The notes beneath the pieces are model-generated. The model had not been told where the DNA came from and ran no database searches. It saw only the letters and a list, made by a program, of their open reading frames with translations. 47,472 bases of DNA, taken from IMG/VR virus record IMGVR_UViG_3300036900_000066, positions 1 to 47,472 of that record; one strand, written 5' to 3'. The translations under genes were made by a program, and so were the position numbers. Positions 14,275 to 42,287 of the stretch are shown here, piece by piece. The stretch comes from a virus. The first letter of the stretch is position 1. Every line of letters starts with the position of its first letter.

Positions 14275-14278
14275 CGAC

Positions 14279-17156: not shown

Positions 17157-17636
17157 ATGAAAACACTGAAAAGTTGTTCTTTCTTGCTTCTGTTTCTGCT
17201 GGCGATTAGCTTTAGCTCCAGCACCGCGATGGCGTGTGGAACGCCCGTTAGCGTAGATCGCACGACTGTTTGTTACGGTGGCGGTTGGTATATGGATTTC
17301 CCGGCTGGCGTGGGTTATTCCAACGATGACGGCGACTGCACGTCAAGTTTTTACGGTACGCCCTGCGGCCAATGTCAATACGGGCTTCACGCCGATTTAT
17401 GGTCGGACTATGTTTGCGTGTATGACCAAGTCGGATATGCTTGCGATTCTCAGACTGCGGCTACGTGGTGGTATCTGTATACCTACCAGAACTACTCCGC
17501 GTTCTCGTTGTATCTGTATTTCAACTGTTACCCCACGGATTATCAAGGCAAGCTACTAATTCCTCCGTTCAAGATGGGCAAGCATGCTCCCATTGAGGCG
17601 GTGGATCGAAGTAGGGCGCTCCCGTACCGGGTTTAG
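17157..17636 (+). CDS. Secreted Cys-rich protein (accessory)
   Basis: A 159-residue protein with a clear signal peptide (MKTLKSCSFLLLFLLAISFS...TAMA) ending near residue 26. The mature part has eight cysteines, an even number that fits disulfides, and is rich in Tyr and Trp (GGGWYMDFPAGVGY, ATWWYLYTYQNY). AMAC could alternatively be a poor lipobox. It lies among head and tail genes, with AT-richer DNA, convergent to the minus-strand gene at 17638. Probably exported to the periplasm or cell surface of the infected host. No family is recognised. Confidence 0.6.
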   Translation: MKTLKSCSFLLLFLLAISFSSSTAMACGTPVSVDRTTVCYGGGWYMDFPAGVGYSNDDGDCTSSFYGTPCGQCQYGLHADLWSDYVCVYDQVGYACDSQTAATWWYLYTYQNYSAFSLYLYFNCYPTDYQGKLLIPPFKMGKHAPIEAVDRSRALPYRV

Positions 17637-17637
17637 T

Positions 17638-18012
17638 TTACTGGATCTTGTAGTATTCCACGATCCAGTGGCCGGATTTTTCTTGCATCATGACGATAAT
17701 TCCGGGTTTATCGCTACGGAAGCACCTTAGCGTTCCGTCTTGAAAGTTTCCCGGTTCGTATTTAATCTCCCGCTCGGTAATGCCGTCTCCCAAGTGGCAG
17801 TCTTTCGGGTTTTTAACGTCGAACCGCCTATAGTCAACGATGCCAGATTCGCACGTCGCGGTGAATGTTGGTCCGCGACCATCCTTTGTGAGTAAGTGCG
17901 CCGCGATCACACCATCCTTGGCGGTTTCAATGAATACCCGTTCGGGGTTGCCGGGAAGTTGACCGAACGCCGCATAGGCCGCGAATAGCAAGATTCCGAT
18001 GCCTTTATTCAT
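17638..18012 (-). CDS. Minus-strand exported protein (accessory)
   Basis: A 124-residue protein with a signal peptide MNKGIGILLFAAYAAFGQ and an AFGQ cleavage-like end. The mature part is beta-rich with three Cys (ATCESG, DCHLGD, LRCFRS) and 'EREIKYEPG'. It runs against all surrounding late genes. TATACT lies 7 nt before the ATG (18020-18025) with a possible TTGATG box at 18041-18046, spaced 15 bp, so the mRNA could be leaderless. It appears to be a separately expressed accessory ('moron') gene. Function is unknown. Confidence 0.6.
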   Translation of the reverse strand: MNKGIGILLFAAYAAFGQLPGNPERVFIETAKDGVIAAHLLTKDGRGPTFTATCESGIVDYRRFDVKNPKDCHLGDGITEREIKYEPGNFQDGTLRCFRSDKPGIIVMMQEKSGHWIVEYYKIQ

Positions 18013-18019
18013 AACGCCA

Positions 18020-18046
18020 AGTATATCAAATGGCCGTAACCATCAA
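18020..18046 (-). promoter_or_regulatory. Candidate minus-strand promoter
   Basis: On the minus strand, TTGATG (complement at 18041-18046) and TATACT (complement at 18020-18025) are 15 bp apart, ending 7 nt before the ATG of the accessory gene. The box overlaps the start of the plus-strand tail gene at 18030. Spacing is short of the ideal 17 bp. Confidence 0.35.
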
Positions 18047-18659
18047 GGGTGACGCGGCTGGCGTAATAACGCGCTGGAAGCAGGGCGTCAAGATCACTCA
18101 GGCCGACGCGACGTATGCCTTGGAACGGCAGCGCACGCGCATCTTGGAGCGCACGGCGCGGGGTGTGGATTACAGCGGGCGACCGTTCGCACCGTACTCG
18201 ACCAATGGGCCGTATTACTACTACCCCAACGGGCGCGTCGGTACGTCGAAGTTCTCCGACCGGCAGAACCGGGCGGCGGCGTCCAGGCTCAAGCGAAAGC
18301 TGGTGGCGAAGTCGGGCACGAACGCGGCTGGCGGGATTCGGCTGACCCGGAGCGGCAAGGGGATCGTATTCGATTCCTACGCGGCATTCAAGGCGTGGCT
18401 GGGCCGTAGCGTGGTCGATTTGTTCGGCCCGCGCGCCCCGCACATGCTGCAGGCTATGCTGGTCAAGGTCGGAAGCGGGATTGTGACCGAGGGCCGCATC
18501 GGGATCTACGGGCAGGAAGCGGATCGGGCATCCGGCCACCAGTACGGGGCGCGCCGGCTCCCACAGCGCAAATTTCTTGGCGCGAGCGTCGAGGATAAGG
18601 AAATCGTCAAGGCCGATATTTTGAAGCGCATCGCCGCCAGGTTGACCAAGAAAACATGA
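18030..18659 (+). CDS. Phage virion morphogenesis / tail completion protein
   Basis: A 209-residue basic protein. After helices rich in Arg (ERQRTRILERTARG) come 'VDYSGRPFAPYST' and near the C-terminus 'GIYGQEADRASGHQYGARRLPQRKFLGAS', matching the Mu gpG-like virion morphogenesis family ('...HQ.G...PQR.FLG.S'). Such proteins complete the tail or head-tail joint. No ribosome site is seen before the ATG, and its first codons overlap the minus-strand promoter. It is joined to the next gene by ATGA. Confidence 0.75.
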   Translation: MAVTIKGDAAGVITRWKQGVKITQADATYALERQRTRILERTARGVDYSGRPFAPYSTNGPYYYYPNGRVGTSKFSDRQNRAAASRLKRKLVAKSGTNAAGGIRLTRSGKGIVFDSYAAFKAWLGRSVVDLFGPRAPHMLQAMLVKVGSGIVTEGRIGIYGQEADRASGHQYGARRLPQRKFLGASVEDKEIVKADILKRIAARLTKKT

Positions 18660-18796
18660 AGCCACGAATCTATAAAGACGACGGCATGAACGACTGGTGC
18701 GTTGAAACGCAGCATCGCCGTGTGTTCTTTAGTTCGTGGAAATCTGCTATCCGCTGGGCGCTCTGGCGCTGCGACGTTAACGCCGGGGTGATTTAG
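18656..18796 (+). CDS. Small hypothetical protein (46 aa)
   Basis: A 46-residue protein with basic ends (MKPRIYKDDG) and several Trp residues (DWCVETQ, SWKSAIRWALWRC). ATGA upstream and a TAGTG junction downstream make it a true link in the operon. The composition (SWxxAIxWA) resembles short tail-region proteins of other phages that have no known function. Confidence 0.55.
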   Translation: MKPRIYKDDGMNDWCVETQHRRVFFSSWKSAIRWALWRCDVNAGVI

Positions 18797-19332: not shown

Positions 19333-19359
19333 GGCCAAGCAAAACATAAGGAGAAACGA

Positions 19360-19719: not shown

Positions 19720-19720
19720 C

Positions 19721-20743: not shown

Positions 20744-20771
20744 TCCACCTTCATTTCGACCTGCCTCCCTC

Positions 20772-20808
20772 GGGGCCAACAGCTAACCGGCTTGCGGCCC
20801 CATTTTTT
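20772..20808 (+). terminator. Rho-independent terminator/attenuator
   Basis: GGGGCC (20772-20777) pairs with GGCCCC (20796-20801) and the inner AGC/GCT extends the stem past a small bulge. ATTTTTT follows directly. It lies between the tail tube stop and the chaperone ATG at 20815, and probably reduces readthrough so that the tube protein is made in excess over the chaperones. Confidence 0.7.
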
Positions 20809-20814
20809 CCCGCC

Positions 20815-24666: not shown

Positions 24667-25412
24667 TGGCCGGTTCCTTCCCAACGCTCAGCGGCGGTAC
24701 GACCGTGATGTACCCGCTGCGGATGAAGGTATCGTGCCTGACACGCATCCAGCGAGGCGCGAATGCGGCGGAACAACGCTATGCGGTGGCTGCTCCCTTC
24801 GCCACGTTCGACGCGACGTATACCAACCTATCGGCGGCGGATCAAGCGACCGTCCAGGGGTTCCACGATTCACAGAAGGGCGCGTTCGACTCGACGTGGT
24901 CTCTGACGTTCGACGGCAAGACGTTCACGGGGATGCGGTTCCTTCAGGACGAACTGAAGTGGACGGAAACCATCCCTAACCGCTGGACCACGGGGCTTCA
25001 ATTCGCGGGATTCTATCCGGCGATTGTTTCTCCACCGGACAGTTTCCCCGCCCTGCCAAGTGGCGCGGTGACGCAGCTTCCGTGGTCGAAGCGGCGGACG
25101 TATGAAACCAACTTCACCGACATGGAGGTTGGCATACGGCACGCGACCGCAGTGCGCGGCGGCGGGCTGACGAACTTCCCGACCGGGCCGGAGTTGCGCT
25201 GGGACATCCAGCTTCACGCGATCCGGCCAGCGGACGCGGAGAATCACATTAAGTTTTTCATCTCTCAGCATGGCCGGTTTGGGTCGTTCAGCTTCACGGA
25301 CCCCGACACGCTGGTAACCTCCACTGGTTGCCGGTACGACTCGGACGATCTGACCGTCGGCTACGACGGATACAACCGCTGCTCGATTTCCTTAACCATC
25401 GTCAAAACGTGA
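24666..25412 (+). CDS. Distal tail / minor tail protein with internal duplication (DUF2460-like)
   Basis: A 248-residue protein following the tape measure by TAATG. Two similar halves are visible: residues about 15-110 (...FHDSQKGAFDSTWSLTFDGK...) and 150-248 (RWDIQLHAIRPADAEN, HGRFGSFSFTDPDTLV, GYNRCSISLTIV). Both have the 'helix, G-x-F-x-S-F-x-F' pattern followed by strands. This resembles lambda M-like or DUF2460 tail tip proteins that sit at the tube's end. A duplicated version is less common. Confidence 0.65.
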   Translation: MAGSFPTLSGGTTVMYPLRMKVSCLTRIQRGANAAEQRYAVAAPFATFDATYTNLSAADQATVQGFHDSQKGAFDSTWSLTFDGKTFTGMRFLQDELKWTETIPNRWTTGLQFAGFYPAIVSPPDSFPALPSGAVTQLPWSKRRTYETNFTDMEVGIRHATAVRGGGLTNFPTGPELRWDIQLHAIRPADAENHIKFFISQHGRFGSFSFTDPDTLVTSTGCRYDSDDLTVGYDGYNRCSISLTIVKT

Positions 25413-25651
25413 TGAAACTCCTGGCCCTACTCGCGCTCATGGCGGGCGCGGCGAACCCACAGCAACCTGTGGACCCATTCGCCTTGCCGAACGCAATGGC
25501 GGCGGCGTACAGCGAGTGGGGCGCACTCTACGCGCGGCGCTGGTCAACCGTGGGACCGCACGCGATCAGCGCCCAGGAAATGCGAGCCTTCGACCGCTAT
25601 CTCGACAGCGTGAACGCCCTGAAAAAGTTTGTAAAGCCTCAATACCAATAG
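25412..25651 (+). CDS. Small exported protein
   Basis: A 79-residue protein beginning MKLLALLALMAGAANPQ, a compact signal peptide with A-x-A type cleavage. The rest is a mixed-charge helix with few Cys. It starts in TGATG of the previous stop and lies directly before the hub gene, an unusual place for an exported protein. Function is unknown; it could be an entry or periplasmic factor. Confidence 0.55.
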   Translation: MKLLALLALMAGAANPQQPVDPFALPNAMAAAYSEWGALYARRWSTVGPHAISAQEMRAFDRYLDSVNALKKFVKPQYQ

Positions 25652-28600
25652 ATGCCAGTCGGATCGATATACACAGCGAAGGACGCCGCTTCGACCGTGA
25701 TGCCGTTGCTTTTGGCAACGATCACGTTCAGCGATGGAACCGTGCTGCGTCTCTCCACTCACGATCTGACCGGTGGGGCAACCTACGGCGGCAATTCCTA
25801 CCTGCCATACATCGTCAACAAGGAAATCGCGGCGACACAGGCGCTCGGGGAGCAAGGTATCGACTTCCCCGCCTCGGTCAACCTCCGGCTGGCCGATTCC
25901 AATTACACACTCTGGTCGAACTACGAAGTAAACCACGGCTTCAAGGGTTCAAGGCTTGAGCTCGTCGCCGTCATGTACGACGTGGTAGCGAACGCCTATT
26001 CTAGCGACTCGCGTACCATCTTTCGCGGAACCTGCAAGGAACCTGGCGGGAAGCTGCCACAGCACGACGGCAAAATATTGACGGTCGGATTCGCCTCCAG
26101 GTTCAACATGACGGACCTTCCGTTGCCCGCGCTGAAGGTCCAAACCAGCTGCCCATGGATATTCCCGGAGACATTGACGGAACGGCAGGACGGGGCCGAC
26201 AATTCCAACTCGCTGTTTTATCAGTGCGGGTATTCGCCAGACGCCACGGGAGCGAACGCGCGCGGGAACCTCGTCGGCGGGGTTGTGGCTACTACCTGCC
26301 CGCTTACGGCTGACGCTTGCAAGGCGCGCGGGATGTTCGAGAAGGACTCGGCCAGCCGCGTGACCGGTCGATTTGGTGGAATCCAATGGAACCCACCAGG
26401 GCAGACACAGCACGTCCGCAACTACATCAGCGGCAAATTCTCCGACGTTGTGGCGTCCTCGAATCAGGCCAGATACGGCGATTACATCCCCATGCTCTAC
26501 GGGCGCGCATGGACGGAGCCGCTCGTTATCAACACTCTGCCTGACGGTAATTTCCTGACGATCACGGCGGTCGTCTGTTTCGGCCAAGTCGATGCGATTT
26601 TCGACGTGGTTGTGAACGATTACCACATCCCGCACACGTACAACGATACCGAATCCCCGATCAGCACTGGCCCCGGCGTGTCGAACAGCACCGACGCTGC
26701 CAAGAGCGGCTGGTGGATCTGCCTGAACAAAGGCGACCGCGACGGAGCACCCGGTACAGCCGGGTCCGGCGAAGATCCTTACGGGTCGTATTGCACGCTG
26801 AGAATTACCGTACCGCTGAAGGTTGCGGCGGCGGGGTCCATCCCGACCGTGCGCGTGTACGCCGAGAAAGGTTCGAGCTACCCGGCGGATCAGATTAAAG
26901 ACATCCTCCAGAACTGGGCGGGATGGGACGCGGCGGAACTGAATGGCTCGTCCTTCACCGCTGCGACCTCGGTAGACGCGGCGGTCATTCCTTACGAGTA
27001 CCAGCCGGGAGCGGCCTCGACGCGCCACCGGTTCACGTCCTCGCTTTACCTGAAGCAGTCGCAAACAGTGGCCGACGTATTGCGCGGCCTGCGGATCTGC
27101 CGACGCGGAATCCTCGGGCCGGATGGTACGGGCCTGCTGCGGCTTGGGACCAAGCAAACCCTGGCCGATCAGCAACCGGCCCCGATCATTGGCTCGAATT
27201 ACTTGACGGCCATCGCGTCCAAGCACGCCGACGGAACAGCGGCCAGTGGGTACGTCGCGTATCGGTTTGACGAGTCGAACATTATCGGGTTCCCGAAGGT
27301 CACACTCCTGACCAATGGAAACACCTATTCCGTACAGTTTCAGAACGCCGATAACAGCCATTCTGTTGACTCACTCCAGGTCATAGACTCCGACGATATT
27401 CGGAGATCGGGTCAGAACATCCCCGGCACATTCGCTGTACAGGGCGCGGATAATTTCGATCTGCTGCATCACCTGGTTGCGGCGGACATGGCGGAACACT
27501 TTCGCGGCAACTGGCGCGATGATACCGGCGGGTCTATCGAAGTGGATGTTATCGCCTCGATTCGCGCGGTCCATCTCAGTGTCGGCGATATCGTCCTGTT
27601 GAATTGGGCATTGCTGGGCATCAATAACCAGTTATTCCGCGTGACCAGCATCGCCCCGACCACGGACTTTGAAACGGCCACGGTAGGGCTGACGTGGCAC
27701 AACGACGACTGGTACGTGGATACCTTCGGGCAAGAGGGACAGGCCGCATTCACGAAGCGCTTTCGGGATAAGCTACTGCGTCCGTCGTTCCCGTGGCTAC
27801 CCTATGGAGAGCAGCCGGTCGTTGGAGATTCGATATTCAACCGCACCGATTGGAGCTTTGGAATTTCTCTGAGCTACACGCTGGCGGCGGACGGAAGCGC
27901 GATCCCGCAAATCACGATCAGCGGGCGCAAGATCGTCAACACGACCAGCGAATCTTTGGCCCCACCGATAGTACCAGTCCAGGGGACGACGGCCAACGCC
28001 GGCGGCACCATCGCGGGCGGCGGTTCGGTGTATGTCAAACTCGTGGCCGTCAACGCGGCGGGGGAATTATCGTCCCTGTCGAACCTCACGACCATCGGCG
28101 TTCCTGCTGGCACGAACACCAACACGGTAACCATTCCCGACTTGCTGTGGGACGCCGATACAGCAACCTATCTGGTTTTCGCGGGCGTCAATCCGAACGC
28201 GCTTTCTTACCAAATTGGCGGCTCCGGTATGCCGTCCTCGATCACGCTGACGGATCTGTCGGTGGCACTGTGGGGGCCACCGGACGGCGAGTTCGATAAG
28301 TACCGCATCCGCATCAAACTCATGGCACATGCCGGGGTGTGGGGCTGGCCGATTTCGGCGCTCACATCCACGTCGGTAGAGGTTGCCTCGCGTCCTTCGC
28401 CTGGGTTCACCACCAACCAGTATGCGGGTTATGACCTGACGTGGTTCGGGCAAGCCGACAGCACCGGAAACCTGCCGATAGCTAATTTCAGAATCGCATC
28501 GAACGATGACAAGACGATAACTTTCGCCGGTGGCGCTCCCGATCCAGTGGCGCTCGGGATGCAACCCGGAGACGTAGTTGTGATCCGATCCATACCGACG

Positions 28601-29266: not shown

Positions 29267-31234
29267 ATGCCAGCGCGCGAGTGGATTCAACTTTACGGCA
29301 GCGGCACCCCGGTAACGGTTCCCGGCGGCGGAGGTGGCGGCGGGGTCACCCCCGGCAACCCGACGATCCTGGCTGTTTCAGTGATCGATGTAACGCGAGC
29401 CTCGGACGGCAGGCCACAGAAGCGGGTCACGGTTCAGTACACCCCGCCGGGACCGCTCGGATCGTTTACCGGCGTAAACGTATACCTGGACCATCCCGAT
29501 TCCAGTGGAACGCTGGCGATTGCAGACGGCACCCAAGCGGCTGATGGAACCGTTGCGGCCAGTGGAAACTTCACCCCGCAGTCTATCGGCAACTTTCCAT
29601 TCGATCCTGCCAACCCCAGTGTCGTGTTCGAGGCCGATGCACCAGCGGGGTACGAATACTGGCGCGTTTATCTCACCCCGACATCCAATAGCATCCAGGT
29701 TCCGGTGGTTCAGTTCGGCATGGCGGGTGCCTCGCCGAGCTACCAGTTTCTAGTTGCCCCGCCCGCCACGATCAGCACCGGGCGCGAGTTTGCCCCGCTT
29801 GTTTCCGGCGCGGCGCTTTCATCTATCCCGACAGGCTGGGGAGCCAATCCGCACATCGCATCAGCGGATTCCGGCGATCAGTATTTCGAGTTTCGCGTCA
29901 CATGGACCTGGCCGACGTTCGATCAGAACTTTCAGACGTTGGGCGGAGTAAACATCGTCCTCGATGACGGCGTTTCGCGTAAGGTCATCGGTCAAGTGTG
30001 GGTGCCGGATACTGTGCAGCCGGGGGTTGTGTCGGTCGAGGCTGATGCGCTGTTCGCTTCCACCCACATAACCGTTCAGCCGGGGACCAAAGCGTACAGC
30101 GTTTGGATCGTCTCATTTAACAAGCAGGGGCAGGTAAATAGAATCGACACAGTAACGCCGGTCGTGGCGTTCAACATCACGAGAAACACCGGCACGGCGG
30201 GGCAGGAATACACGTCGCTGGTGAGCTCCGACGGCGTCCACGCGCTTGTCACCGTGGCTCCGGTTGCGGGCGCGGACGGAACGTCGCTGTTGAGAATTAC
30301 CGGGTATTTCGCGGCCCCCTCCGATCCGTCTTTCGGAGGCGCTGAGATTGTCGCGCTCAAGCCGGACGGGAACTACTACAGCATCATATCCGGCAGGCTG
30401 ACGCCGCTTCAGAACGACATCAGCCAGCCCCCGAGTGTCGAGTCGTGGACGTTCTACCTGCGATCCATCGACATCAACGGCAGGCGCAATACCATCGTGG
30501 GCGGTACCACCCCGTCTATCGTACTCAGCGTGGGGAACGCGGGCGGGGTGCTCAATCTTGCCCGCGCTGCCGGTTCGTCATTCTCCAGCGAGTTCCAGAT
30601 TTCCGGTGGCGTGTTCAAGGTTCTGAACCTGTCGGCGGCGACGGTGACCACGGGGATTCTGCAAGTCGGCGGCGGCGGTGGCAAGGTTTCACAGTTCAAG
30701 ATATTCGACACGCTTGGGTCGATCATCGGATTCATCGGCGACGATACTGGCGGGACCGGGTATGTCGGTGCGTGGTTCAAGCAGGCCCGCATCGGTGGAA
30801 CATCTCCCAGCACGGCACCACTTCAGGCGGACACGAGCGGGAACGTTTCGATTGTAAACGCCACGATCACCAGCACGTCGGGCACATCCACGGCGACGAT
30901 TAACGCCGCTGCTGTTGACGTTCAGGATTCCTCACTACACCTTGAAGCCAAGATTCTCACAGGGGCGTTCCTTGCACAGAGTATCTCTGGTTTTTACAAC
31001 GGGCAAATGGCCCTCAATTTATGGTCGTTGCTTTTCACCGATTCGGGGTCTGCTGCGGTGGAGATAGGCACAACCAGCGGCAGTACTCCGTATTTCGTTA
31101 AAATGCGCGGGATTAAAGTCCTGGGTGAGCGGCAAACAGGTCCCGGAACCCCCAGTTTCGCGTCTTTATCCGATGCCCAAACGTGGTGCTCGAATCTAAA
31201 TACTGCTCTCCGAAATCACGGGATGATTACCTAG
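29267..31234 (+). CDS. Tail tip / fiber-connecting protein
   Basis: A 655-residue beta-rich protein with a Gly run near its start (PGGGGGGGVTPGNP). FN3-like segments follow (residues 60-400), then a Thr/Ser/Gly-rich C-terminal region (STSGTSTATINAAAVDV) typical of fiber shafts, ending in a helix SDAQTWCSNLNTALRNHG. It starts right after the hub stop. Its stop overlaps a minus-strand stop in the palindrome CTAG (31231-31234). Confidence 0.65.
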   Translation: MPAREWIQLYGSGTPVTVPGGGGGGGVTPGNPTILAVSVIDVTRASDGRPQKRVTVQYTPPGPLGSFTGVNVYLDHPDSSGTLAIADGTQAADGTVAASGNFTPQSIGNFPFDPANPSVVFEADAPAGYEYWRVYLTPTSNSIQVPVVQFGMAGASPSYQFLVAPPATISTGREFAPLVSGAALSSIPTGWGANPHIASADSGDQYFEFRVTWTWPTFDQNFQTLGGVNIVLDDGVSRKVIGQVWVPDTVQPGVVSVEADALFASTHITVQPGTKAYSVWIVSFNKQGQVNRIDTVTPVVAFNITRNTGTAGQEYTSLVSSDGVHALVTVAPVAGADGTSLLRITGYFAAPSDPSFGGAEIVALKPDGNYYSIISGRLTPLQNDISQPPSVESWTFYLRSIDINGRRNTIVGGTTPSIVLSVGNAGGVLNLARAAGSSFSSEFQISGGVFKVLNLSAATVTTGILQVGGGGGKVSQFKIFDTLGSIIGFIGDDTGGTGYVGAWFKQARIGGTSPSTAPLQADTSGNVSIVNATITSTSGTSTATINAAAVDVQDSSLHLEAKILTGAFLAQSISGFYNGQMALNLWSLLFTDSGSAAVEIGTTSGSTPYFVKMRGIKVLGERQTGPGTPSFASLSDAQTWCSNLNTALRNHGMIT

Positions 31235-31602
31235 GGGATGACGGGTGAAGCAACGATGAGATCTGTAGAAGCCACGCCGACGGCGCTGATGACGATATCC
31301 GACATATCCCCGGAAGGGAAGATGGCAATAAAGTCTCCCGCTTCGTCGCGCGCCATCGTGAAATGCGGCTGTGCCTGACGCGACCCAAACATTACGCTTT
31401 TGTATGTAACCAGGATGAAAACGCCAGCGACCTCAGCCGTGGATGGGTGGGCGGTGACTTTAATTCGCGGCGAAAAACACCCGGATGAAAACTGATCCAA
31501 AAAGCTAACTCCATTGCAGTTTGGGGCAATCTGCTCGTATTTCACGGTTGCCTGAGCGAACGCGGCGCTCGCGGTTAAAAGGATCGCGAATAAGGTTTTC
31601 AT
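31231..31602 (-). CDS. Minus-strand exported protein (accessory)
   Basis: A 123-residue protein with signal peptide MKTLFAILLTASAAFAQ. The mature part has two Cys (PNCNGVS, GCFSPR), beta-like repeats (IKVTAHPSTAEVAGVFILVTYKS), and ends DLIVASPVIP. AAGAAAGAG before the ATG acts as a ribosome site. It overlaps the 43-residue basic gene by ATGA, so they form one minus-strand operon between two tail genes. Same strand, size and export signal as the gene at 17638 without visible sequence identity. Confidence 0.6.
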   Translation of the reverse strand: MKTLFAILLTASAAFAQATVKYEQIAPNCNGVSFLDQFSSGCFSPRIKVTAHPSTAEVAGVFILVTYKSVMFGSRQAQPHFTMARDEAGDFIAIFPSGDMSDIVISAVGVASTDLIVASPVIP

Positions 31603-31730: not shown

Positions 31731-31736
31731 GCGCTA

Positions 31737-31765: not shown

Positions 31766-31782
31766 GCATCATTCTGGACCCT

Positions 31783-32052: not shown

Positions 32053-32054
32053 AC

Positions 32055-32771
32055 ATGCCATTATTCGGCACATACAAAACCACGAACCCGAGCTACTTCC
32101 CGCTGGTGTCATCCAAGCCAGCGTGGAAGCTGGATTTCAGCGGCAACGTGTGGGATGCAATTATGGACATCCTCACGGCGAACCTCGGCAGCAGCATGGC
32201 GTGGACGGCCCCGACGCTGCTGAACGGATGGACCAACTTCGGATCGGGGAACGCTACCGCAGCGTACATGATCGACGCGATGGGGTTTGTTCATGTGCGC
32301 GGGGTCATAACCGGCGGAACGCCCACAGACGGAACGACACTCTTTACTCTCCCGGCTGGGTTCCGACCGCCAGCCAATGTGTCATGCAACGCGATTAACG
32401 CAGGCAATCATTCTTCTATAAGAATCGACATCGGGTCCACCGGCGACGTGAAGCTCTACGGCATGGGCGGTGCGGGAATACCGGACATGAATTTCAGCTT
32501 CTCCGTGGCTACCACGTTGGCCCCGATGAACGGTGGGTTGACGCCGCAGTTGGGGACCACCACAACACTGACCCCAGGAGCGAGCCCCTACACCTACACC
32601 GACAGCGGAACCGGAATCGAGCGCCTGTATATCTCTGGCGGCTCCGTGACGAATATAACCCAAAACGGCGGGACACTGACGAGCGCATTTCCGCTCATGG
32701 TCGTGCTGTTCCCTGGCGAATCGATCACGGTCACGTACGACGAAGTCCCAACGATGGTGGTTGTGAGATGA
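32055..32771 (+). CDS. Tail fiber-like protein, shared C-terminal domain
   Basis: A 238-residue beta-rich protein without a signal peptide. Residues 60-150 (GFVHVRGVITGG, TLFTLPAGFRPPA, STGDVKLYG) resemble phage receptor-binding tips. Residues about 170-238 (TTTTLTPGASPYTYT...RLYISGGSVTNITQNGG...LFPGESITVTYDE) form a domain that is repeated at the end of the next gene. AAGG precedes the ATG, and ATGA joins the next gene. Confidence 0.65.
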   Translation: MPLFGTYKTTNPSYFPLVSSKPAWKLDFSGNVWDAIMDILTANLGSSMAWTAPTLLNGWTNFGSGNATAAYMIDAMGFVHVRGVITGGTPTDGTTLFTLPAGFRPPANVSCNAINAGNHSSIRIDIGSTGDVKLYGMGGAGIPDMNFSFSVATTLAPMNGGLTPQLGTTTTLTPGASPYTYTDSGTGIERLYISGGSVTNITQNGGTLTSAFPLMVVLFPGESITVTYDEVPTMVVVR

Positions 32772-33463
32772 GATGGCTGGCGGCGCTGCTTATGCTTTCG
32801 GCGGTCGCTCTGGCGCAACCGGAAGCGTCAATACGAACCGTAATAGCGGACCCAGGCGGGAATTGTGTCGCCCACGCCTCGCAGCAATTCAACGAACGCA
32901 ACGGAAAACAGTGGGCCTGTGTTGATGCAAATGGCGACGGGTACGGGACGTGGACATGGATCAACCAGGGCATCGGTGGAACCGGCAGCATCGCCACGAC
33001 TGGCCTTGTCCTAAAAGGCGACGGCCTGGGCGCGGGCATACCGGCGACCCCCGGCACGGATTACGTTATTCCGAGCGGCACCACTGCCAAGGCCACAGTG
33101 CTTGCAGCGGACCCCGCCAACTGCGTTACCGGATTGCCGCGCGGCATCGACGCCAGCGGAGTGGCGCAGAATTGCGCGCCGGTGAACGTGGCGACGGAGA
33201 TTACCGGAATAGTTCCGCCAGCAAACGGCGGCATGTTTGTTCCAACGGGAACGACTACGACGATAACCCCCGGCCCAAGTCCCTACACCTACACGGCGGG
33301 CGGCGGGATTGAGCGCCTGCATATTTCTGGAGGATCGGTGACCGACATAAAGCAGAACGGGGTCACGCTGACGACGACCTTACCATTCATGGAACTTCTG
33401 TTCCCCGGAGAATCCGTAACTGTGACCTACGATGAAACCCCCAACATGGCGGTGGTGAAATAA
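32768..33463 (+). CDS. Fiber-like protein with signal peptide
   Basis: A 231-residue protein beginning [17 protein letters not shown], a typical signal peptide. Two Cys near residue 33-50 and one pair later (NCVTG, NCAPVN). The C-terminal ~70 residues are a paralogue of the previous gene's end: [45 protein letters not shown] fiber-type domain behind a Sec signal is odd for a virion protein. It is joined to both neighbours by ATGA/TAATG. Confidence 0.6.
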
Positions 33464-36400
33464 TGAAAAACCTTCTACTGACACTCGTTCTGGCGTTCGG
33501 CGCGTCCGCGCAAATCTTCCCCAATCGCGGGGAACCCATCAACGCGCAAACCGGCACCACGTATACATTCGTGCGGGCCGACAATCAAAAGCTCGTCACG
33601 TTTACTAATGTTTCCGCAATAGCTGCGACGCTTCCTCAGGCCGGGGTGAACTTCTTCTCTGGCTGGTACGTGGACGTGCAGAATCGCGGCGCCGGTACGG
33701 TCACGATCACCCCGACCACGTCAACAGTCGACGGCGGGACGACGCTCGTATTGACATCCGGCCAGGGCGCGCGCATCGCCAGCAACGGCACGAACTACTT
33801 CACTCAGCGCGGCATGGGATCTGGTGGAGGCGGCGGGGCCACGATCCCGAGTGTGACCAATATCATCAAAGGAAATGGCTCCGGCAACGGCGCAGATACC
33901 AAGGTATCTATCACGTCTCCGGCAACGGCTGGAACCCTCGCGTTCCCGACGGATAATGCGACGATCACCTTTCAGGGAACGGACACATATGTCGGGCGGG
34001 CCACGACTGATACCCTCACCAACAAAACCCTAAACTCGCCCACGCTCGTTACGCCAGCACTGGGAACCCCGGCAAGCGGGGTACTCACGAACGCGACGGG
34101 GCTTCCCCCGTCGGGCGTGACCTCGGCCCAAGGAAACGGAACGAAGTTCCAACTCAGCACCGGCACGACCACGACAAACGACTGCGTTAAGTTCGACGTA
34201 AACGGAAACACGGTCGACGCGGGCGCGGCCTGCGGTTCTGGCGGAGGCTCGAACTTCACCGGCTCGACGGCAGTAACATCCGCCTTCAGCGCCACGCCCA
34301 CATTCTCGCTGGCCGATGTGAGCGTGAAAAGCCCGACGCGGTTTGAACCTGGCGCACTCACGGCGAATGTAACCTCTGTCACATTCACCAATAAGAGCGC
34401 CGGTGCGAAGTTCTCTATCGTATGGCTCCAGGATGCGACCGGCGGGCGCACCATCGCTTACGGTGCGTCGGCCTCAAATGCATGCGCGATTTCTGCGACG
34501 GCCAGCAAGACCACTGTGCAACAGTTCGAGGTGGCTGCTGACGGAACCACGGTCGTAGGAACAGGCTGTTCCAGCAATGATGCCGCCGATACCCCCGTGA
34601 CCGGCCCAGCTTCCTCGACGACGAACGATTGTCCAAAGTTCGCGGACACGACCGGTAAGGTGCTGTCCGATGCGGGCGTGTGCCTACTGAGCGGCGGAGC
34701 ACTTGGTACCCCGTCCAGTGGTAACGCTTCCAACCTGACGAATCTGCCGATCACGCTGACCACGACCGGCACGAGTGGGGCGTCTACCTACACGCAATCC
34801 ACCAACACGCTGAACATCCCGCAGTATAGCGGTGGAGGCGGATCGAGCGCCGGTACCGTCGTGCCCAAAACGGCGAACTATACGCTGCTTTCGACCGACA
34901 GCGGGAACATCCTCACATTCAATGGGGCATCGCTCACCGCAACCTTACCGGCTACGCTTCCGACGATGCCTTGGATTGTGGGTATCAAGAATATGAACGC
35001 CTCGGACCTGACCGTGGCGCGGAACACGAACACGATCAACGGCGGCACGTCGAACATCACTCTGCATCAGTATCAGGAAACGTCCTGCGAATCGGACACC
35101 GTGACGGCGACCGAGTACAAATGCACCACCCCGAGCAGTGGTAGTTCGACGATCACATTGACCCAGGCGGCGAACGGGCAGACTTACTCCATCCCGTCCT
35201 CGGTGGCGCTGCCTGGGAGTCCAACCACCACGACGCAGACGGCTGGCGATAACAGCACTAAGGTCGCGACCACGGCCTACGTGGACCGGGTTGGCATCGC
35301 TTCACTGACGACCACCGGCACGAGCGGCCCAGCTACACTCTTCAGCGGGACGCTGAACATCCCGCAATATTCTGGCGGTGCCGGAACAGTGGTAAACAAG
35401 ACCGCGAATTACACTCTGGTATCCGGTGACTCGGGCAACGTGATCCAATTCAACGGCGCGTCCCTGACTGCTACTCTCCCAGCCGCACCGCCGACAATGC
35501 CGTGGATGGCCAGCATCTGCAATATCAACGCTTCCGCCCTGACAATCGCCCGCAACACTAACACGATTAACGGAGTAGCGGCTAACACGGTGCTTAATCA
35601 GTACCAGTGCTCCACGGTTGTATCGGACACCGTCACTGGCGCGAATTACGTGGCATCACTGCCTGGATTCTCCAACCCAATGACCACGGCTGGAGACATC
35701 ATCTATGGCGGTACTGCGGGGGCACCCACGCGGCTTGCGATTGGAGGAGCGACCACGCTCCTGCATGGAGGCGCAACGGCTCCGGCTTATTCTTCGCTTG
35801 CTCTCGGCGACACACCATTGACGACACGCGGTGATATCTTATTCGCTGGGACCGGCCCCGCTCTTTCTCGACTACCAATCGGAGCCGCTAACACGGTACT
35901 CCATGGAAGCGCCACGGACCCGGCCTACAGTGCCCTGGTCGGTGCGGATTTCGGATCTTCGATCGCAGCCAGAACCGCGCTTGGAAACAACACGGCATCG
36001 GCAGCGGCCCCAGGGTTTGGAACTACTGTTGACGTTCTGGCCTATCAGACCGCCGAGATCCCTGCTTACGTGTTCGTCACTTCAAACTTCACTACCAGCG
36101 GTTCTGGTACGGCACTGGAAGCCATCACCGGGCTTACTTGGACGATGCCAGCAAGCACGGCGCTGAACATCCCCTTCCATTGCGCTCTTGTTTATCACCA
36201 AAACTCGGCGGTTGTGGCGGTAGCATTCGGCTTTCAGAACGCGACTACCGGGGCAACCAACCTGATCGCTTCCGGGGAAATCCATACGTCGACCACGGCA
36301 CTGACTGCGGGGAACGTCGCCAATACCACAGCTACGACGGCGACGGCGGTAGTAAGCGCGACTCCATCGGTCATAACGACAAACTGGAACGCAACGCTGG

Positions 36401-36516
36401 ACGGGATGATAGAACAGCCGTCAGGCACGGCCAGTGTATTTACGATTCGCGTGAGCACGGCCACGGCTGCGGATACCGTCACGGTGCTTCGTGGATCGTA
36501 TTGCAGAATCGGATAA
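33463..36516 (+). CDS. Large repetitive fiber protein with signal peptide
   Basis: A 1017-residue protein starting [18 protein letters not shown] fiber-cap-like beta module occurs at residues 30-110, again at about 465-545 and about 645-730 (TANYTL..., SGN..., [21 protein letters not shown]), next to shared [10 protein letters not shown] motifs. Two copies of 'RGDI.F.GT...RL.IG.A.T.LHG.AT.PAYS' follow (740-826). The C-terminal end resembles a host-binding tip. The export signal is unexpected for a fiber. Confidence 0.65.
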
Positions 36517-36520
36517 TCAC

Positions 36521-37681
36521 ATGCGAAATAAACTTTGTTTGCTCGTCCTGACGCTTGCCGCCATCGTCCCGATCAGGGCGCAGATATCGACACTGATGCT
36601 TGCCGGGAAAGCCGGTAGCAGCAGCGGAACCGGTTGCACCCATGGGGCGACGTACTCGAACTGCATCACGTTCACCATCGACCATACGAAGGTTCCGAAC
36701 ACCGATCAGACGAATTTCCCGGTCCTTATCAGCCAAACCGTAACAGAATGGAAAACGGCTGCGAACGGCGGGCACGTTCAGAACACCGTCACGCAGTCTG
36801 GTGGAACAGCGCTAACAATTCCCGCTGATCTGATTTTCACGAGCGATAGTAGTTGTGCAACACCCGTCGCTGGCTGGCAGTTCAACGCCTACACCGCGAC
36901 CACTGGGGCGTCGGCTGTTTGGGTGAATGTGGCGAGCGTCTCACACACCACGGATACGTCGTTCTATGCTTGCTACAACGCAGCGAGCGTGACCACACAG
37001 CAGAACACCGTATCCGCAACTTGGGACACCAATTACAAGGGCGTATATCACTTGGAAGATAACGCGGCCAATACGACGGTCGCGGATTCAACCAGCAACG
37101 CTACGACCCTGACCAACAATGTCAATACGAGCACCGTTACCGGTGCGGCTGAGATCGTGAATGGTCTAACTTACGATGGAGCAGCCGGTAAATCCTACAC
37201 CGCTAGCGCGAACGTCCAGCAATCCGTTTTCACCATCGACGGGTGGGTGAATCTAACAAGCACTCCGGGTAGCCCGCGCGGTATTTGGGGATCAGACACA
37301 TCAGGAGCGATCGAGTTCCGCGTGAACGATTCGCCCCACAATTTAACGCTGCTCAAGCAAGGCGTGGCGGCGATTGGAACATCGAGCGGAACAATTTCAC
37401 TGGCTACCTGGACGCATGTGGCCGCGACCTACGACGGTTCAGGCAATTACGCCTTTTACATTAACGGGGCACCGTCTGGGACCGGTACAAACTTGCAGAC
37501 GTTCAGCTTTACGGGCAGCAATAACGGCGTGGGAGGAAGCACGGGAGGCCCAGAGCTATGGTTTGGAACGGTTGATGAGATAAGGTTTTCCGGTACCGCG
37601 CGCTCCGCGGATTGGATCGCCACCGAATACAACAATCAGAACAGCCCCGGGACCTTCTTATCGCGCAGCACGGAACACTAG
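36521..37681 (+). CDS. Exported LamG-like (DUF2341 + concanavalin fold) protein
   Basis: A 386-residue protein with signal peptide MRNKLCLLVLTLAAIVPIRAQ. Residues 50-190 match a DUF2341-like module (FPVLISQTVTEWKTAAN, LIFTSDSSC, WDTNYKGVYHLED). Residues 220-386 are a LamG/concanavalin-like sheet (FTIDGWVNLTSTPG, TWTHVAATYDGSGNYAFYING, LWFGTVDEIRFSGTARSADW). Such domains bind sugars or surface polymers. The start at 36521 is chosen at the signal peptide rather than the in-frame 36491. Confidence 0.7.
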   Translation: MRNKLCLLVLTLAAIVPIRAQISTLMLAGKAGSSSGTGCTHGATYSNCITFTIDHTKVPNTDQTNFPVLISQTVTEWKTAANGGHVQNTVTQSGGTALTIPADLIFTSDSSCATPVAGWQFNAYTATTGASAVWVNVASVSHTTDTSFYACYNAASVTTQQNTVSATWDTNYKGVYHLEDNAANTTVADSTSNATTLTNNVNTSTVTGAAEIVNGLTYDGAAGKSYTASANVQQSVFTIDGWVNLTSTPGSPRGIWGSDTSGAIEFRVNDSPHNLTLLKQGVAAIGTSSGTISLATWTHVAATYDGSGNYAFYINGAPSGTGTNLQTFSFTGSNNGVGGSTGGPELWFGTVDEIRFSGTARSADWIATEYNNQNSPGTFLSRSTEH

Positions 37682-37706
37682 CCCCCTGGAGTAAAAACAG
37701 CCCCAA

Positions 37707-40583
37707 ATGCAAATATCGCGAATAGTGCCACAAAAAACAAAACAAATACTGCGGCCTCAAGGCGTTTCGTTTTCATCGTTCAGTCTCCCGTGGCTGCTAT
37801 TATATCTCGCTTTATCGGCGCAAGCGGCCAATATCTACGTCGCCAGTTCCACGAGTTCTCCATCTGGTAGCGATTCAAACGCGGGAACCATCGGCGCGCC
37901 GTGGCTCACTCTCGGCCACGCGGTTGCCAATGTCGCGACCGGAGACGTAATCAATATCGTGGCGGATGGGAACAAGGTTACCTGCGATGCCACGCTCCCC
38001 GCGAACGTCACCAACATCACGGTTCAATCAACGAAGCTCGCAATGCTTCAGCCGGTAGGATTTCGCGTCAATCCTGCGGTCGATTCGGCCAACTTCGGCA
38101 AGTGCCAATTCGCAGCTGGCGGCATCGTCGCCCAAGGCGAAACGCACGGCCTTAACTCGACCCCCGTGTATCAAGGAATGTCGCTCAGCGGCAGCACATT
38201 TACCCTGGGGGGGAACTGGGCCCCGAACGGTTATACGGTTGCCAACGGAACGCAAATCGAGTTTGAATTAGACGCGGAACTCTCCACGCCGATCATGCCC
38301 ACCGGGACAGCCGTACCTTCTCCGTTGGTTCAGGGGCAGCATTACTACGTGGTCAACTGCAGCGTCAGTCCCGCCTGCGGGCAAAGCGGGTCCACCTTGC
38401 AGGTATCCGCAACGTCGGGCGGATCGCCGATCACCATTACGGCCTGCGATGCCAATTGCACCACCTACACCGTCATTGGTCTGCCTCTGCAAGCTGACGC
38501 CACGGCGGACACGATCACTTCGCCGGATGCGCTGGGCGCGGTCTATGCCAACGGAACCCCGATTACATTTGGCTCCGGCGGGATGCTGCTCGCCAACAAT
38601 CTGCCAGCGCCCCTGGCGCAAGACACAATTTATTACGTCTGCAATCTGAGCGGGCGATCTTTCAAGGTCGGTACCGTTTCCAATTGCTCGACGACGGTAA
38701 ACCTCACGGACGTTGGCACCGGGATGCAGAGCGTGTCCAATCAGAACGTGCCCCACGGATGGAAGTTCAGCGGAATCGAGTTCGCGCCAACCAGCGGCAA
38801 TTTCATGTTCAACGAGATCGTCCTGGGAGGTGGCCGGGAGACCAGCCCCTTATCCATGCCCGACCATTTTGAGTTTGACCGGATATGGATGCACGATTTT
38901 TCGGAGACTCAAAACGGGCCGCTCCGTGGGATTGCGGAAAACTCCACGAATTTCAACATCCACGACAGTTACATTGCGGGGATAAAGGTGGTCGGCAACG
39001 GAGACACGCAGGCTATCGGGGGATGGTCAAGCTACGGGCCCACCACGATCACAAACAACTTCCTGGAATCAGCCGGCGAGAATTTGCTGTACGGGGGAGT
39101 GATCCCAACCTATTACCCCCTGACGAACCAGAACAAGACGATGACAGGGAACTACTTCTACAAGCCGTTTATCTGGAAGCAGGCAAGTGGAACAGTCACC
39201 CCAAGTGGGGCGTGTCTGTTCGACGCTACAACCAGCCCAGACCCTGACCACCGAGGCGGGGAATGGTACTTGGATACGATGACGAGCCAGCAGTATGTTT
39301 GCGTCAACGGCACATGGACCACAACGGGTTCGTCTCCTCCCGGTTATGGCGTGAAGAACATTTTTGAATCCAAGAATGGCCGGAACTGGACCGTCACTGG
39401 AAATGTATTCGAGGGAGCCTGGACGGACGCCCAGCAGGGGGAAGCCCTTGGTTTCGGGCAGCACCTCGATAGCGGGCCGGGATTCGCCAACGATCACATC
39501 ACCGTAACCAACAACAAAATCACGAAGGTCTACCGTTTCCTGGAGGGTGGTTCACTATGCTCCGGTACGAGCACCGGGACCGTGCAGTGCGTGAACGGGA
39601 TCACGAATCATCACACGATCACCAACAATCTGGCGGTCCTGGGAGGCCCAGCCTACTGCGGAGTTTCGTTCAACAGCGCCACATGCGGATACAATATGTG
39701 GGCTGTTCTTTGGTCGGGACACGCGACATTACAGGATACCTGGGACCACAACACGATTGTCCAGCCGGATGGAATCAGCGCTTCGCCTTACACCCCCAAC
39801 GCCTATTTGTACGACCTGACCTTGGTTCCAAGCCCGCTGAACGACCAAAGTATTTACACGAACAGCATTAACTCTTACGACTTCCCATTTGCGATAACTG
39901 GTTTTTCAACCGGCTGGACCAACAGCACGTGGAACCGGATGGCGATGATTGGCGCGACCGGGACGTACACCGGCAGCGCTGGCACCGGCAACACGATGAC
40001 GAATACATCGCTCCCCGCAAACACGGCGGCGGTGGGGTTCGTCAACACATCCACCGGAGACTACCACCTGGCATCGACGAGCCCCTACAGCGCCGCGAAT
40101 GGCTCCGCTACGCTGCTCTCGAGCGACGGCACGGACCTGGGCGCGGATATCGACCTCATCAACTGGAAAACCTCGGGCGCGATCCTCGGCACGCCGACAT
40201 GGGATGTTCAGGAAGGGCTGACCATCACGCCATCCTTGACCGGAGCGACGATCACTTATACCCGGCCCGGTACGACTGCCTGCTCGCTGACGATCTACAA
40301 CGCACCGGCGCGGATCTCAGCCAACGAGAATGCGGACACCAACACCAGCGGGAACAAGTTAGACACCCGCACCGGCAATACCGTCATAGGGGCGAATGTC
40401 ACGTTCAACGTGGGCACCGTTTCAGCACTGACGCCGGGAACGCAGTACTGGTATTCGTTGTCGTGTGTATCCACCGGATCAGGAACCTGGCTGATCGCTG
40501 GGGACAGTTTCACGACGGCCAGCGGAACGAACACGCCCAGGCATTTCGGTGCGACTCGTCGATCTGGAGCATCCCGCAATTAG
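37707..40583 (+). CDS. Beta-helix tail spike-like protein with signal-like N-terminus
   Basis: A 958-residue protein. The N-terminus (MQISRIVPQKTKQIL...) has a hydrophobic stretch LPWLLLYLALSAQA followed by NIYVASSTSSPSGSDSNAGT, the entry motif of many right-handed beta-helix, DUF1565-like proteins. The middle (350-800) has repeats 'N..F..., NNLAVL, HNTI' typical of parallel beta-helix coils and pectate-lyase-like folds. Residues about 840-930 are FN3-like (YWYSLSCVSTG). The last ~25 residues look like read-through into the opposite gene. It may act as a polysaccharide-binding spike. Confidence 0.65.
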   Translation: MQISRIVPQKTKQILRPQGVSFSSFSLPWLLLYLALSAQAANIYVASSTSSPSGSDSNAGTIGAPWLTLGHAVANVATGDVINIVADGNKVTCDATLPANVTNITVQSTKLAMLQPVGFRVNPAVDSANFGKCQFAAGGIVAQGETHGLNSTPVYQGMSLSGSTFTLGGNWAPNGYTVANGTQIEFELDAELSTPIMPTGTAVPSPLVQGQHYYVVNCSVSPACGQSGSTLQVSATSGGSPITITACDANCTTYTVIGLPLQADATADTITSPDALGAVYANGTPITFGSGGMLLANNLPAPLAQDTIYYVCNLSGRSFKVGTVSNCSTTVNLTDVGTGMQSVSNQNVPHGWKFSGIEFAPTSGNFMFNEIVLGGGRETSPLSMPDHFEFDRIWMHDFSETQNGPLRGIAENSTNFNIHDSYIAGIKVVGNGDTQAIGGWSSYGPTTITNNFLESAGENLLYGGVIPTYYPLTNQNKTMTGNYFYKPFIWKQASGTVTPSGACLFDATTSPDPDHRGGEWYLDTMTSQQYVCVNGTWTTTGSSPPGYGVKNIFESKNGRNWTVTGNVFEGAWTDAQQGEALGFGQHLDSGPGFANDHITVTNNKITKVYRFLEGGSLCSGTSTGTVQCVNGITNHHTITNNLAVLGGPAYCGVSFNSATCGYNMWAVLWSGHATLQDTWDHNTIVQPDGISASPYTPNAYLYDLTLVPSPLNDQSIYTNSINSYDFPFAITGFSTGWTNSTWNRMAMIGATGTYTGSAGTGNTMTNTSLPANTAAVGFVNTSTGDYHLASTSPYSAANGSATLLSSDGTDLGADIDLINWKTSGAILGTPTWDVQEGLTITPSLTGATITYTRPGTTACSLTIYNAPARISANENADTNTSGNKLDTRTGNTVIGANVTFNVGTVSALTPGTQYWYSLSCVSTGSGTWLIAGDSFTTASGTNTPRHFGATRRSGASRN

Positions 40584-41165
40584 ATCGCGCCCTTTGGTAG
40601 CGGAAACGAAGAACGTCTCCCCGGCTGGCCCCGTGGATCTACGGAAGGTGATATTCGCGAAGCCCGCGCGATTGAGCGCGATACGCATTCCGCGCTCAGT
40701 CTGAAACGATTCTGTTCGGTGAAAACATTTCTTGGTTCTCCCGGTCAGATGGAACCATAGGCCGTTGGCAATGACGTACAGCCTGAACAGAACCGGCAGC
40801 GGGCGGGGGAATGCGTTGCGCGCAAGCTCGGCAAGTGTGAATCCTGGCAGGTGGAGGCTCGCTGAAAATGTTCCCTCGGGAGAGAGCGTTCGATGAATTT
40901 CAGCAAGTGTTTCCTGGATATTCATGTACGGCATGGCTACGGCTGATATAACGCGGTCGAAACTCCCGCCGTAAAATGGCAGGGCTTCTCCACGGCCTTG
41001 AAAGTATCCTCGACAGGGGAATCGTTCCCGCGCTTGCGCGAGGCTTTCGCGGTCAATATCTAACCCGGCGATAACGTCTGACTGGCTGACACCCCAAGGG
41101 GTCAGATCGCGTCCGGTGCCACAACCCAAATCGAGAACGGTCACAAGTAGAGATTTTACCACCAT
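40479..41165 (-). CDS. Class I SAM-dependent methyltransferase
   Basis: A 228-residue protein on the minus strand. The motif I DLGCGTG (12-18), GLDID (34-38), a GEALPFYGGSFDRVISAVAMPYM stretch and 'EIHRTLSPEGTFSASL' fit a UbiE-like class I fold. AAGGA lies 6 nt before the ATG. Motif I starts very near the N-terminus, so the first helix is short or lost. The family ending around 'ETFFVSATKG' is passed by about 30 residues overlapping the spike's 3' end. Substrate unknown. Confidence 0.75.
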   Translation of the reverse strand: MVVKSLLVTVLDLGCGTGRDLTPWGVSQSDVIAGLDIDRESLAQARERFPCRGYFQGRGEALPFYGGSFDRVISAVAMPYMNIQETLAEIHRTLSPEGTFSASLHLPGFTLAELARNAFPRPLPVLFRLYVIANGLWFHLTGRTKKCFHRTESFQTERGMRIALNRAGFANITFRRSTGPAGETFFVSATKGRDLIAGCSRSTSRTEMPGRVRSAGRRETVPSDQPGS

Positions 41166-41173
41166 GCCATTCC

Positions 41174-41196
41174 TTGACAGCATTCTGAGCCTGTTT
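41174..41196 (+). promoter_or_regulatory. Possible promoter element (-35 TTGACA)
   Basis: A perfect TTGACA (41174-41179) lies in the 79 bp between two diverging genes, but the sequence 17 bp downstream (CTAGGC) is a poor -10. It could serve the plus-strand gene at 41245 with an activator's help. Confidence 0.25.
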
Positions 41197-41244
41197 CTAG
41201 GCTCGGCCAAACAATCGATTCAACCAACAGAGGAGAAAACCACA

Positions 41245-41814
41245 ATGGGAAATTACGTTTCTGATCCAGCACGGCAGGCCGCATTCGACGCGGCGTATTG
41301 GGCCGCGCAATCGCCCGAGGTCAACGCCGCGCGTCAACTCGATCCGGTAGCCCGCAACAGCGCGATGATGGACCTCGCCAAGTCCGGGAAGGCGCTCATC
41401 GACAAGAGCATCATGATCTGGGGATGGGACCCATACATGGATTATTTGGACAGGTGTGCTCAAGGCTTTGCCTGGGTGCCGAACGTGTTGCAGGACTCTC
41501 CGCCGGTGCCCGCCTTCACTCAAAACAACCCGGCGCCCGTCGGTTCCTTCCTGGTCCACGACGCCAACAGCTACGACTTGGCCGCGTGGTTCCCGCCGTT
41601 CGCTCCTCCGCCTCCGCCTCCTCCTCCGGCTCCGGTTACCTTCGTCGATCTCAGCCGCACGTGGCCCGATCAGGGGCCGAACGCATTCTACTCGACCGTG
41701 GCCGGTCAATCCGTGCCCACCGGCAAGGAGATCCAGGAGGACGGAAAGAACTGGGTGAAGATCTTCGTCGACTTCCCGTTCGGCATGGGCTTCCACGGGT
41801 TCAAGCAGGTATGA
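41245..41814 (+). CDS. Hypothetical protein with polyproline linker
   Basis: A 189-residue protein with a helical first half (YVSDPARQAAFDAAYWAAQSPEVN, KSIMIWGWDPYMDY), a run of eight prolines at about residue 123-131, and a C-terminal domain (VTFVDLSRTWPDQGPNAF...VDFPFGMGFHG). GAGGAGA at 41230-41236 fixes the ATG at 41245, though an in-frame ATG at 41164 could add a short hydrophobic start. The polyproline linker separates two domains. Function is unknown. Confidence 0.6.
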   Translation: MGNYVSDPARQAAFDAAYWAAQSPEVNAARQLDPVARNSAMMDLAKSGKALIDKSIMIWGWDPYMDYLDRCAQGFAWVPNVLQDSPPVPAFTQNNPAPVGSFLVHDANSYDLAAWFPPFAPPPPPPPPAPVTFVDLSRTWPDQGPNAFYSTVAGQSVPTGKEIQEDGKNWVKIFVDFPFGMGFHGFKQV

Positions 41815-42287
41815 AGATCCTCGCCCTACTCGCCGCACTGATGGCCCTTCCGCTGGCAGCGCAAACCCCCGCGCCACCCGCCGAACCCTCGCAGCTTTAC
41901 GGCATCGGCGCGGGCATCCAGGGACTCGGGCCGTCGCAGATCCGAGGCGGGTACTTCATCGGCCAGCACGTCGGGGCTGGGAAGTACCTCATCGAGTCGA
42001 CTGACCTGGTGAGAATGCCAGGTGGAACCGTTGGGACTTCGGCGCACGCCGGACTCTATGACCGCTTGGCAACTCTCGGACCGCTGACGCTCGGCATCAT
42101 CGGCGATGCCGGCGTAGCGGAGGTACAGACGGGCTCCGCAAGCGGCTCGGTGTCTGGCTGGGGCGTGGCGTCGATCAAGCTGTGGAATTGGCCGCTTACA
42201 CTCACGCCCACGGCTCGGATTATGACAATCGCCGGACAGGGCCAGGTGGCACAGATCCGCGTGTATCTGACGGTGAACATCAAGTAA
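41811..42287 (+). CDS. Exported outer-membrane-like small protein
   Basis: A 158-residue protein with signal peptide MKILALLAALMALPLAAQ. The mature part alternates polar and hydrophobic residues (GAGIQGLGPSQIRGGYFIG, GLYDRLATLGPLTLGIIGDAG, SGWGVASIKLWNWPLTLTPTAR) and ends VAQIRVYLTVNIK, which resembles an amphipathic beta-barrel or periplasmic beta protein. ATGA joins it to the polyproline gene. It could change the host outer surface or exclude other phages; this is inference. Confidence 0.6.
   Translation: MKILALLAALMALPLAAQTPAPPAEPSQLYGIGAGIQGLGPSQIRGGYFIGQHVGAGKYLIESTDLVRMPGGTVGTSAHAGLYDRLATLGPLTLGIIGDAGVAEVQTGSASGSVSGWGVASIKLWNWPLTLTPTARIMTIAGQGQVAQIRVYLTVNIK

Follow-up and report, generated by a model that had tools for sequence, protein, structure and literature searches.

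Tailed phages are known to export some of their proteins, among them Lom, Bor and the spanins, and it is nothing unusual for a phage to export a peptidoglycan enzyme. Soil phages also encode secreted-type auxiliary carbohydrate-active proteins, which have been reported as single cargo genes. The assembly of tailed phages, fibres included, is taught as wholly cytoplasmic. Here we analysed a 47,472-nucleotide stretch of viral DNA (IMG/VR record IMGVR_UViG_3300036900_000066; the whole stretch is called the window below), the linear record of a soil phage with a siphophage-type structural module, which carries a cassette of fibre- and spike-like genes with Sec signal peptides. Judged by sequence, these type I signal peptides are genuine, and the cassette recurs as a unit of variable content. 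No precedent for signal peptides on runs of fibres was found in the literature searched, subscription papers and preprints being outside its scope.

The initial annotation had placed signal peptides at ten starts, and all ten open reading frames (ORFs) are present there. The encoded proteins, predicted to be exported, are as follows, a slash marking the predicted cleavage site:

242..670, plus strand: transglycosylase-like protein (start named as 248), PF01464 match below cut-off; signal peptide ...SPRAVA/LI
17157..17636, plus strand: 159-residue Cys-rich protein; signal peptide ...SSSTAMA/CG; eight Cys in the mature part
17638..18012, minus strand: 124-residue protein; signal peptide ...AAYAAFG/QL; three Cys
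25412..25651, plus strand: 79-residue protein, the weakest candidate; short leader MKLLALLALMAGA/AN; TGATG overlap with the preceding stop
31231..31602, minus strand: 123-residue protein; signal peptide ...ASAAFA/QA; two Cys
32768..33463, plus strand: 231-residue protein; four Cys; ATGA overlap with 32055-32771
33463..36516, plus strand: modular fibre of 1017 residues with phage fibre modules; 12 Cys; TAATG overlap
36521..37681, plus strand: LamG (PF13385) lectin-like protein of 386 residues; signal peptide MRNKLCLLVLTLAAIVPIRA/QI; Cys pair 112/151
37707..40583, plus strand: beta-helix spike-like protein of 958 residues; leader end LALSAQA/AN; 16 Cys
41811..42287, plus strand: 158-residue protein; signal peptide MKILALLAALMALPLAA/QT; no Cys; ATGA overlap

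The starts were scored by rules for n-region charge, a 9-residue uncharged h-region and an A-X-A-type site, with a minimum length. Nine of the ten (248, 17157, 18012(-), 31602(-), 32768, 33463, 36521, 37707 and 41811) passed, having the charged n-region, uncharged h-region and A-X-A site of Sec type I export by signal peptidase I, so that the annotated signal peptides are borne out at all starts except 25412, whose leader fits the pattern but is below the minimum length. By comparison, 2 of 50 other window genes passed, weakly, and when residues 2-45 of each start were shuffled, the observed score was reached in 0-3.7% of shuffles. Two of the starts are weaker, 18012(-) with G at -1 and 37707 with a leader of 40 residues; the 37707 homologue in phage L176 (63-65% identical) is likewise predicted to be exported and has an ordinary leader, MRIALFLAALSLQG/ATYY. 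The same scorer found three signal peptides in lambda (Lom, Rz, and Bor), two in T1, and one each in D3112 and Rhodoferax phage P26218, none of them on a fibre. Zero to two signal peptides per genome have been reported for five rumen phages using SignalP (PMC5723332). Lipoproteins processed by signal peptidase II were considered and rejected, as no lipobox with Cys at +1 was seen and most starts, by reading, have Gln there; A-M-A/C of 17157 is not a lipobox. Gln is also the +1 residue in 8 of 15 scored leaders of a host contig, with a scorer that slightly favours Q.

Paired cysteines are expected of periplasm-folded proteins and not of cytoplasmic ones. Because whole-protein cysteine density proved only a modest test, we used parity and spacing, counted in the mature parts of 46 exported proteins encoded by 13 phages. 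The count was even in 40 of 45 exported proteins (p=4e-8), and the cysteines appeared to be paired sequentially, with a median spacing of 17 for C1-C2 and C3-C4 versus 55 for C2-C3 and C4-C5 (p=1.6e-19). Neither feature was seen in the structural-module ORFs without signal peptides of five of these phages (18/60 even; spacing 39 versus 22.5). Limited to proteins with at least two Cys, the count was even in 40/44 exported proteins compared with 18/44 without signal peptides (p=5e-7), and the result was nearly independent of the leader cut point. These patterns make export with oxidative folding of the fibre- and spike-like proteins almost certain. The annotation had suggested export to the host envelope rather than, or before, virion assembly; what stands of this is export from the cytoplasm, as paired cysteines track the signal peptide in 13 phages and within one family.

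An internal motif was used to retrieve relatives of the fibre 33463, and the gene start played no part in their choice; the rate of signal peptides among them is therefore an independent test. Fourteen of 15 motif-bearing ORFs have a signal peptide, as against 4/83 fibres with other modules (p=1e-12) and 6.9% of the other ORFs of the same loci, and the fifteenth, L084, lies just under the threshold and is also signal-peptide-like. The motif-bearing fibres contain 2.2 Cys per 100 residues, whereas fibres without signal peptides contain 0.14. The modules of 33463 also occur in phage fibres without signal peptides, and a search with the motif 'DANGN..DAG' for Cys-free versions gave a single example without a signal peptide.

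The family in which paired cysteines track the signal peptide is that of the LamG protein 36521, which exists in two states: the homologues in the window, L223, L226, and L230 have signal peptides, and those in L224, L225, L227, and L228 do not. Where the window protein has C112 and C151, Cys occupies the aligned columns in 4/4 forms with a signal peptide and in 0/4 without (two-sided p=0.029). Since L230 (with signal peptide) groups with L228 (without) at a support of 96/95, the state has switched at least twice. Furthermore, the L224 and L227 proteins come from phages with other signal-peptide genes, so that the Cys pair is tied to the protein and not to the phage.

Fibre modules or beta-helix or lectin domains were found in 33463, 36521, 37707, and 32768. 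Three of the proteins had been taken for fibres or spikes, which agrees with the phage fibre modules of 33463 and the beta-helix homologues of 37707; 36521 is a LamG lectin-like protein. Using tblastn against the Phages collection, 33463 gave one short match, and 37707, 36521, and 32768 gave none. AlphaFold2 yielded no usable model for 37707 (mean predicted local distance difference test, pLDDT, 28 with two sequences) or 36521 (35 with a single sequence). The protein at 41811, possibly a small outer-membrane barrel and the only one of the set that might be a Lom-type moron, has no Pfam match and a distant match to a signal-peptide protein in L227, and an IMG/VR search for its relatives found none.

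The cassette recurs with changing content. In L226 the order is that of the window, fibre - LamG - beta-helix, with signal peptides on all, and L176 has a run of about eight genes with leader-like starts that ends in the 37707 homologue, with no further similarity to the window within its 18.8-kb locus. Phage G008, a true relative of the window phage (large terminase subunit, TerL, 48%; major capsid protein, MCP, 57%; hub 31%), has different signal-peptide genes (1789 residues with 35 Cys; 1029 residues with 17 Cys) after its own tail genes. In the window, G008, G009, G004, and G007, the fibre- or spike-like genes follow those for the tail hub or ejection proteins. Signal-peptide genes are interleaved with structural genes in G001, G003, and G007, lying between a portal-sized gene and scaffold/capsid-type genes in G003 and among low-Cys ejection-type proteins in G007. 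Because the starts of 25412, 32768, 33463, and 41811 overlap the stop codon of the preceding gene, translational coupling of these four with late genes is suggested, with the two minus-strand genes as exceptions. Independent transcription units, as in Lom-type morons, were considered for the signal-peptide genes and set aside on account of the stop/start overlaps and of promoter and terminator scans in which sites were not above chance.

Two observations concern other members of such cassettes. Small leader-bearing proteins (~80-110 residues) recur at L176:2844-3107, L002:14791-15090, G007:40558-40884, and G008:54040-54375, and these four, together with window 25412, are candidate spanins. One of the 46 scanned cassette members matches the PF04185 phosphoesterase family; a protein of the L006 cassette (13085-14992 by our reading) fits by sequence, and would be a secreted enzyme, not a fibre.

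An apparent graft of a signal peptide is seen in L084, where it directly precedes the domain LLPNALQQYFDSNGNPVTSGTVDFYIPSTSTRKTTW..NTNPVILDAAG. This domain also occurs in Rhodoferax phage P26218 and in Pseudomonas phage PAE2, in tail proteins that lack a signal peptide and have the domain from their start Met onward. The L084 protein, which also carries Tail Collar domains, probably retains an attachment domain. Its contig, G009, encodes head closure, adaptor, and coat families of the P22 type, and every recognisable fibre- or spike-like gene on it has a signal peptide, although the contig is incomplete and a fibre without one may lie outside; the exported fibre is located after ejection-type proteins.

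How these proteins are used can be pictured as follows. The fibre-, lectin-, and beta-helix-type proteins would be made late, alongside those of the virion. Their passage through the inner membrane via host Sec, the loss of their signal peptides, and disulfide formation in the oxidising periplasm are supported by the sequences. Outside the cytoplasm they would act on surface or exopolysaccharide (EPS) glycans, with release at lysis. The fibre-type members would then meet finished, partly fibreless particles and complete them from outside, and enzyme-like members such as 37707 would act free. We put the probability that fibre-type members are added to virions at lysis at roughly 0.45, and favour this reading because of the L084 graft, the lack of a recognisable fibre without a signal peptide in G009, and the existence of LamG proteins in both forms. 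In P22, soluble tailspike is able to complete heads in vitro. As a tentative generalisation, some tailed phages of soil bacteria, including a P22-like podophage and this siphophage group, may send part or all of their receptor-binding fibres or spikes through Sec, and these may fold with disulfides in the periplasm and then complete virions from outside at lysis. Several points weigh against this picture: the presence of exported proteins on particles is inferred; no attachment domain is common to the exported proteins of one phage; some cassette members of relatives look plainly secreted (the PF04185 phosphoesterase); and the difference in cysteine density within single genomes is modest (1.8 versus 1.0 per 100 residues pooled) and not significant in all, the strong signal being that of parity and spacing.

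The window phage, moreover, retains a hub and fibre candidates without signal peptides (25652, 29267, and 32055), as would be expected if the exported proteins never joined the virion and instead worked in the periplasm or at the surface, where they would bind or cut glycans of the envelope and EPS. The effect could be receptor masking, which would give superinfection exclusion or prevent re-adsorption of progeny to debris, or a loosening of EPS for progeny spread. The cassettes hold LamG, beta-helix, F5/8, collagen, kelch, and phosphoesterase domains, the host homologues of 37707 are exported, and the exported 32768 shares its C-terminal domain with the neighbouring tail-type protein 32055, which lacks a signal peptide, and thus resembles a decoy. 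However, such free action would leave G009 without a recognisable fibre, and L084 keeps its probable attachment domain. We regard purely free action as a doubtful but serious possibility; virion completion and free action can also operate together.

The annotation had alternatively proposed that host genes were captured together with their signals, and such genes would be cargo (morons or auxiliary genes) of use to the infected host or, indirectly, to the phage. For 37707 capture is plausible, judging from its matches: residues 350-830 match chromosomal exported beta-helix proteins in 43/297 Acidobacteriota genomes at 28-46% identity, several with leaders or membrane anchors, and two of these adjoin apparent polysaccharide genes, as we read the neighbours. 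For 33463 it does not fit, as only 1/297 genomes has a match, and the matching protein is built of fibre modules too and has phage-like neighbours. Because 37707 matches host chromosomal proteins and 33463 is made of phage fibre modules, two origins are indicated rather than one. Cargo would also suit the two small opposite-strand genes among the structural genes (17638-18012 and 31231-31602). Considering that most plus-strand genes overlap structural genes and lack promoters of their own above chance, that the 33463 modules are those of phage fibres, and that the cassettes recur in unrelated phages, cargo is an unlikely account of the set. Next to 37707 in the window, a class I methyltransferase ORF (PF08241) on the minus strand (40479-41210) overlaps the 3' end of the spike gene by ~100 bases. 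The window and L176 spikes are unlike in their last residues, and a junction left by insertion or recombination is therefore suggested.

It is very improbable that the hydrophobic starts are uncleaved N-terminal anchors or tail-binding helices on proteins that remain cytoplasmic until lysis. Leader cleavage is a prediction, and the leaders of 37707 and 25412 are unusual, but the paired cysteines and their covariation with the signal peptide would then be without reason, the A-X-A sites with Gln at +1 resemble the host-contig leaders, and homologues without signal peptides start at the mature start. Chance or miscalled starts may apply to the weak 25412 and 18012(-), and are refuted for the set as a whole by the 2/50 background, the one to three signal peptides per control phage, and conservation in relatives.

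The remainder of the structural module comprises the following:

8029: TerL
9695: portal
12390: MCP
18030: neck
21682: tape measure, assigned by size and place
25652..29266, plus strand: tail hub without signal peptide, assigned by place and relatives; conserved in G008 and an Acidobacteriota prophage remnant
29267..31234, plus strand: 655-residue tail/fibre-type protein without signal peptide; one Cys; likely a tail part assembled in the cytoplasm
32055..32771, plus strand: minor-tail-type protein without signal peptide; one Cys; PHROG 3285 and others; adjoins its exported partner 32768

An IMG/VR search for relatives of the hub found none. The host of the window phage is probably an acidobacterium, because one Acidobacteriota genome encodes an MCP with 59% and a hub with 30% identity to those of the window, and because the only match of the exported-fibre motif among genome contigs was a 2590-residue fibre with a signal peptide in an Acidobacteria metagenome-assembled genome. 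Other hosts are likely for some relatives since their G+C is lower (L223, 0.41; the L084 contig, 0.44). An Acidobacteriota contig (G300, C12:108200-121260) holds a remnant with window-related MCP, tail, and hub genes and no terminase seen beside them, either a degraded prophage or a gene-transfer-agent-like unit. Elsewhere, the window encodes a DNA polymerase III beta clamp (1591-2712; PF00712/PF02767/PF02768), which is unusual for a siphophage of 47 kb and can serve host phylogeny, and a stand-alone sigma-70 region 4 protein of 80 residues (6373-6615; PF04545), a possible late-gene regulator. Between the head and neck genes, a 256-residue ORF (16378-17148) without a Pfam match has HNH-like and Cys-rich motifs by eye and resembles a homing endonuclease; similar Cys-rich ORFs are present in the G008 module.

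An exported, disulfide-stapled fibre set would imply that a second step of assembly takes place outside the cytoplasm or that the phage secretes receptor-like decoys and tools for glycans, and, if fibres are indeed added from outside, a new assembly route. Many uncultivated relatives also carry export signals on fibre- or spike-like proteins, and a signal peptide together with even, sequentially paired cysteines offers a simple sequence test for finding them. There is also a caution for soil viromes, as some of the secreted genes called 'auxiliary' in them may be fibres.

Compared with the Lom/Bor-type morons of lambda, the proteins described here are likewise Sec-exported, and lom occupies the same genomic spot, with tail tip J on one side of it and the side-fibre genes on the other. 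Unlike Lom and Bor, which are single small barrels or lipoproteins, they form runs of three to nine large, disulfide-paired fibre-, lectin-, and spike-type proteins, and many of their genes overlap structural genes. Ordinary Caudoviricetes fibres (TLTNKTL/Collar-domain fibres and P22 gp9-type spikes) share the modules and the place after hub or ejection genes, and the N-terminal domain of L084 is that of the P26218 and PAE2 fibres, but they lack signal peptides (79/83) and are nearly Cys-free. The exported right-handed beta-helix proteins of Acidobacteriota, related to 37707, are chromosomal, 500-600 residues long, and poor in Cys, whereas the phage version has 958 residues and 16-24 Cys. Finally, in contrast to the auxiliary carbohydrate enzymes of soil viruses, found as single cargo genes, the genes described here form a positional cassette, most of which consists of fibre modules.

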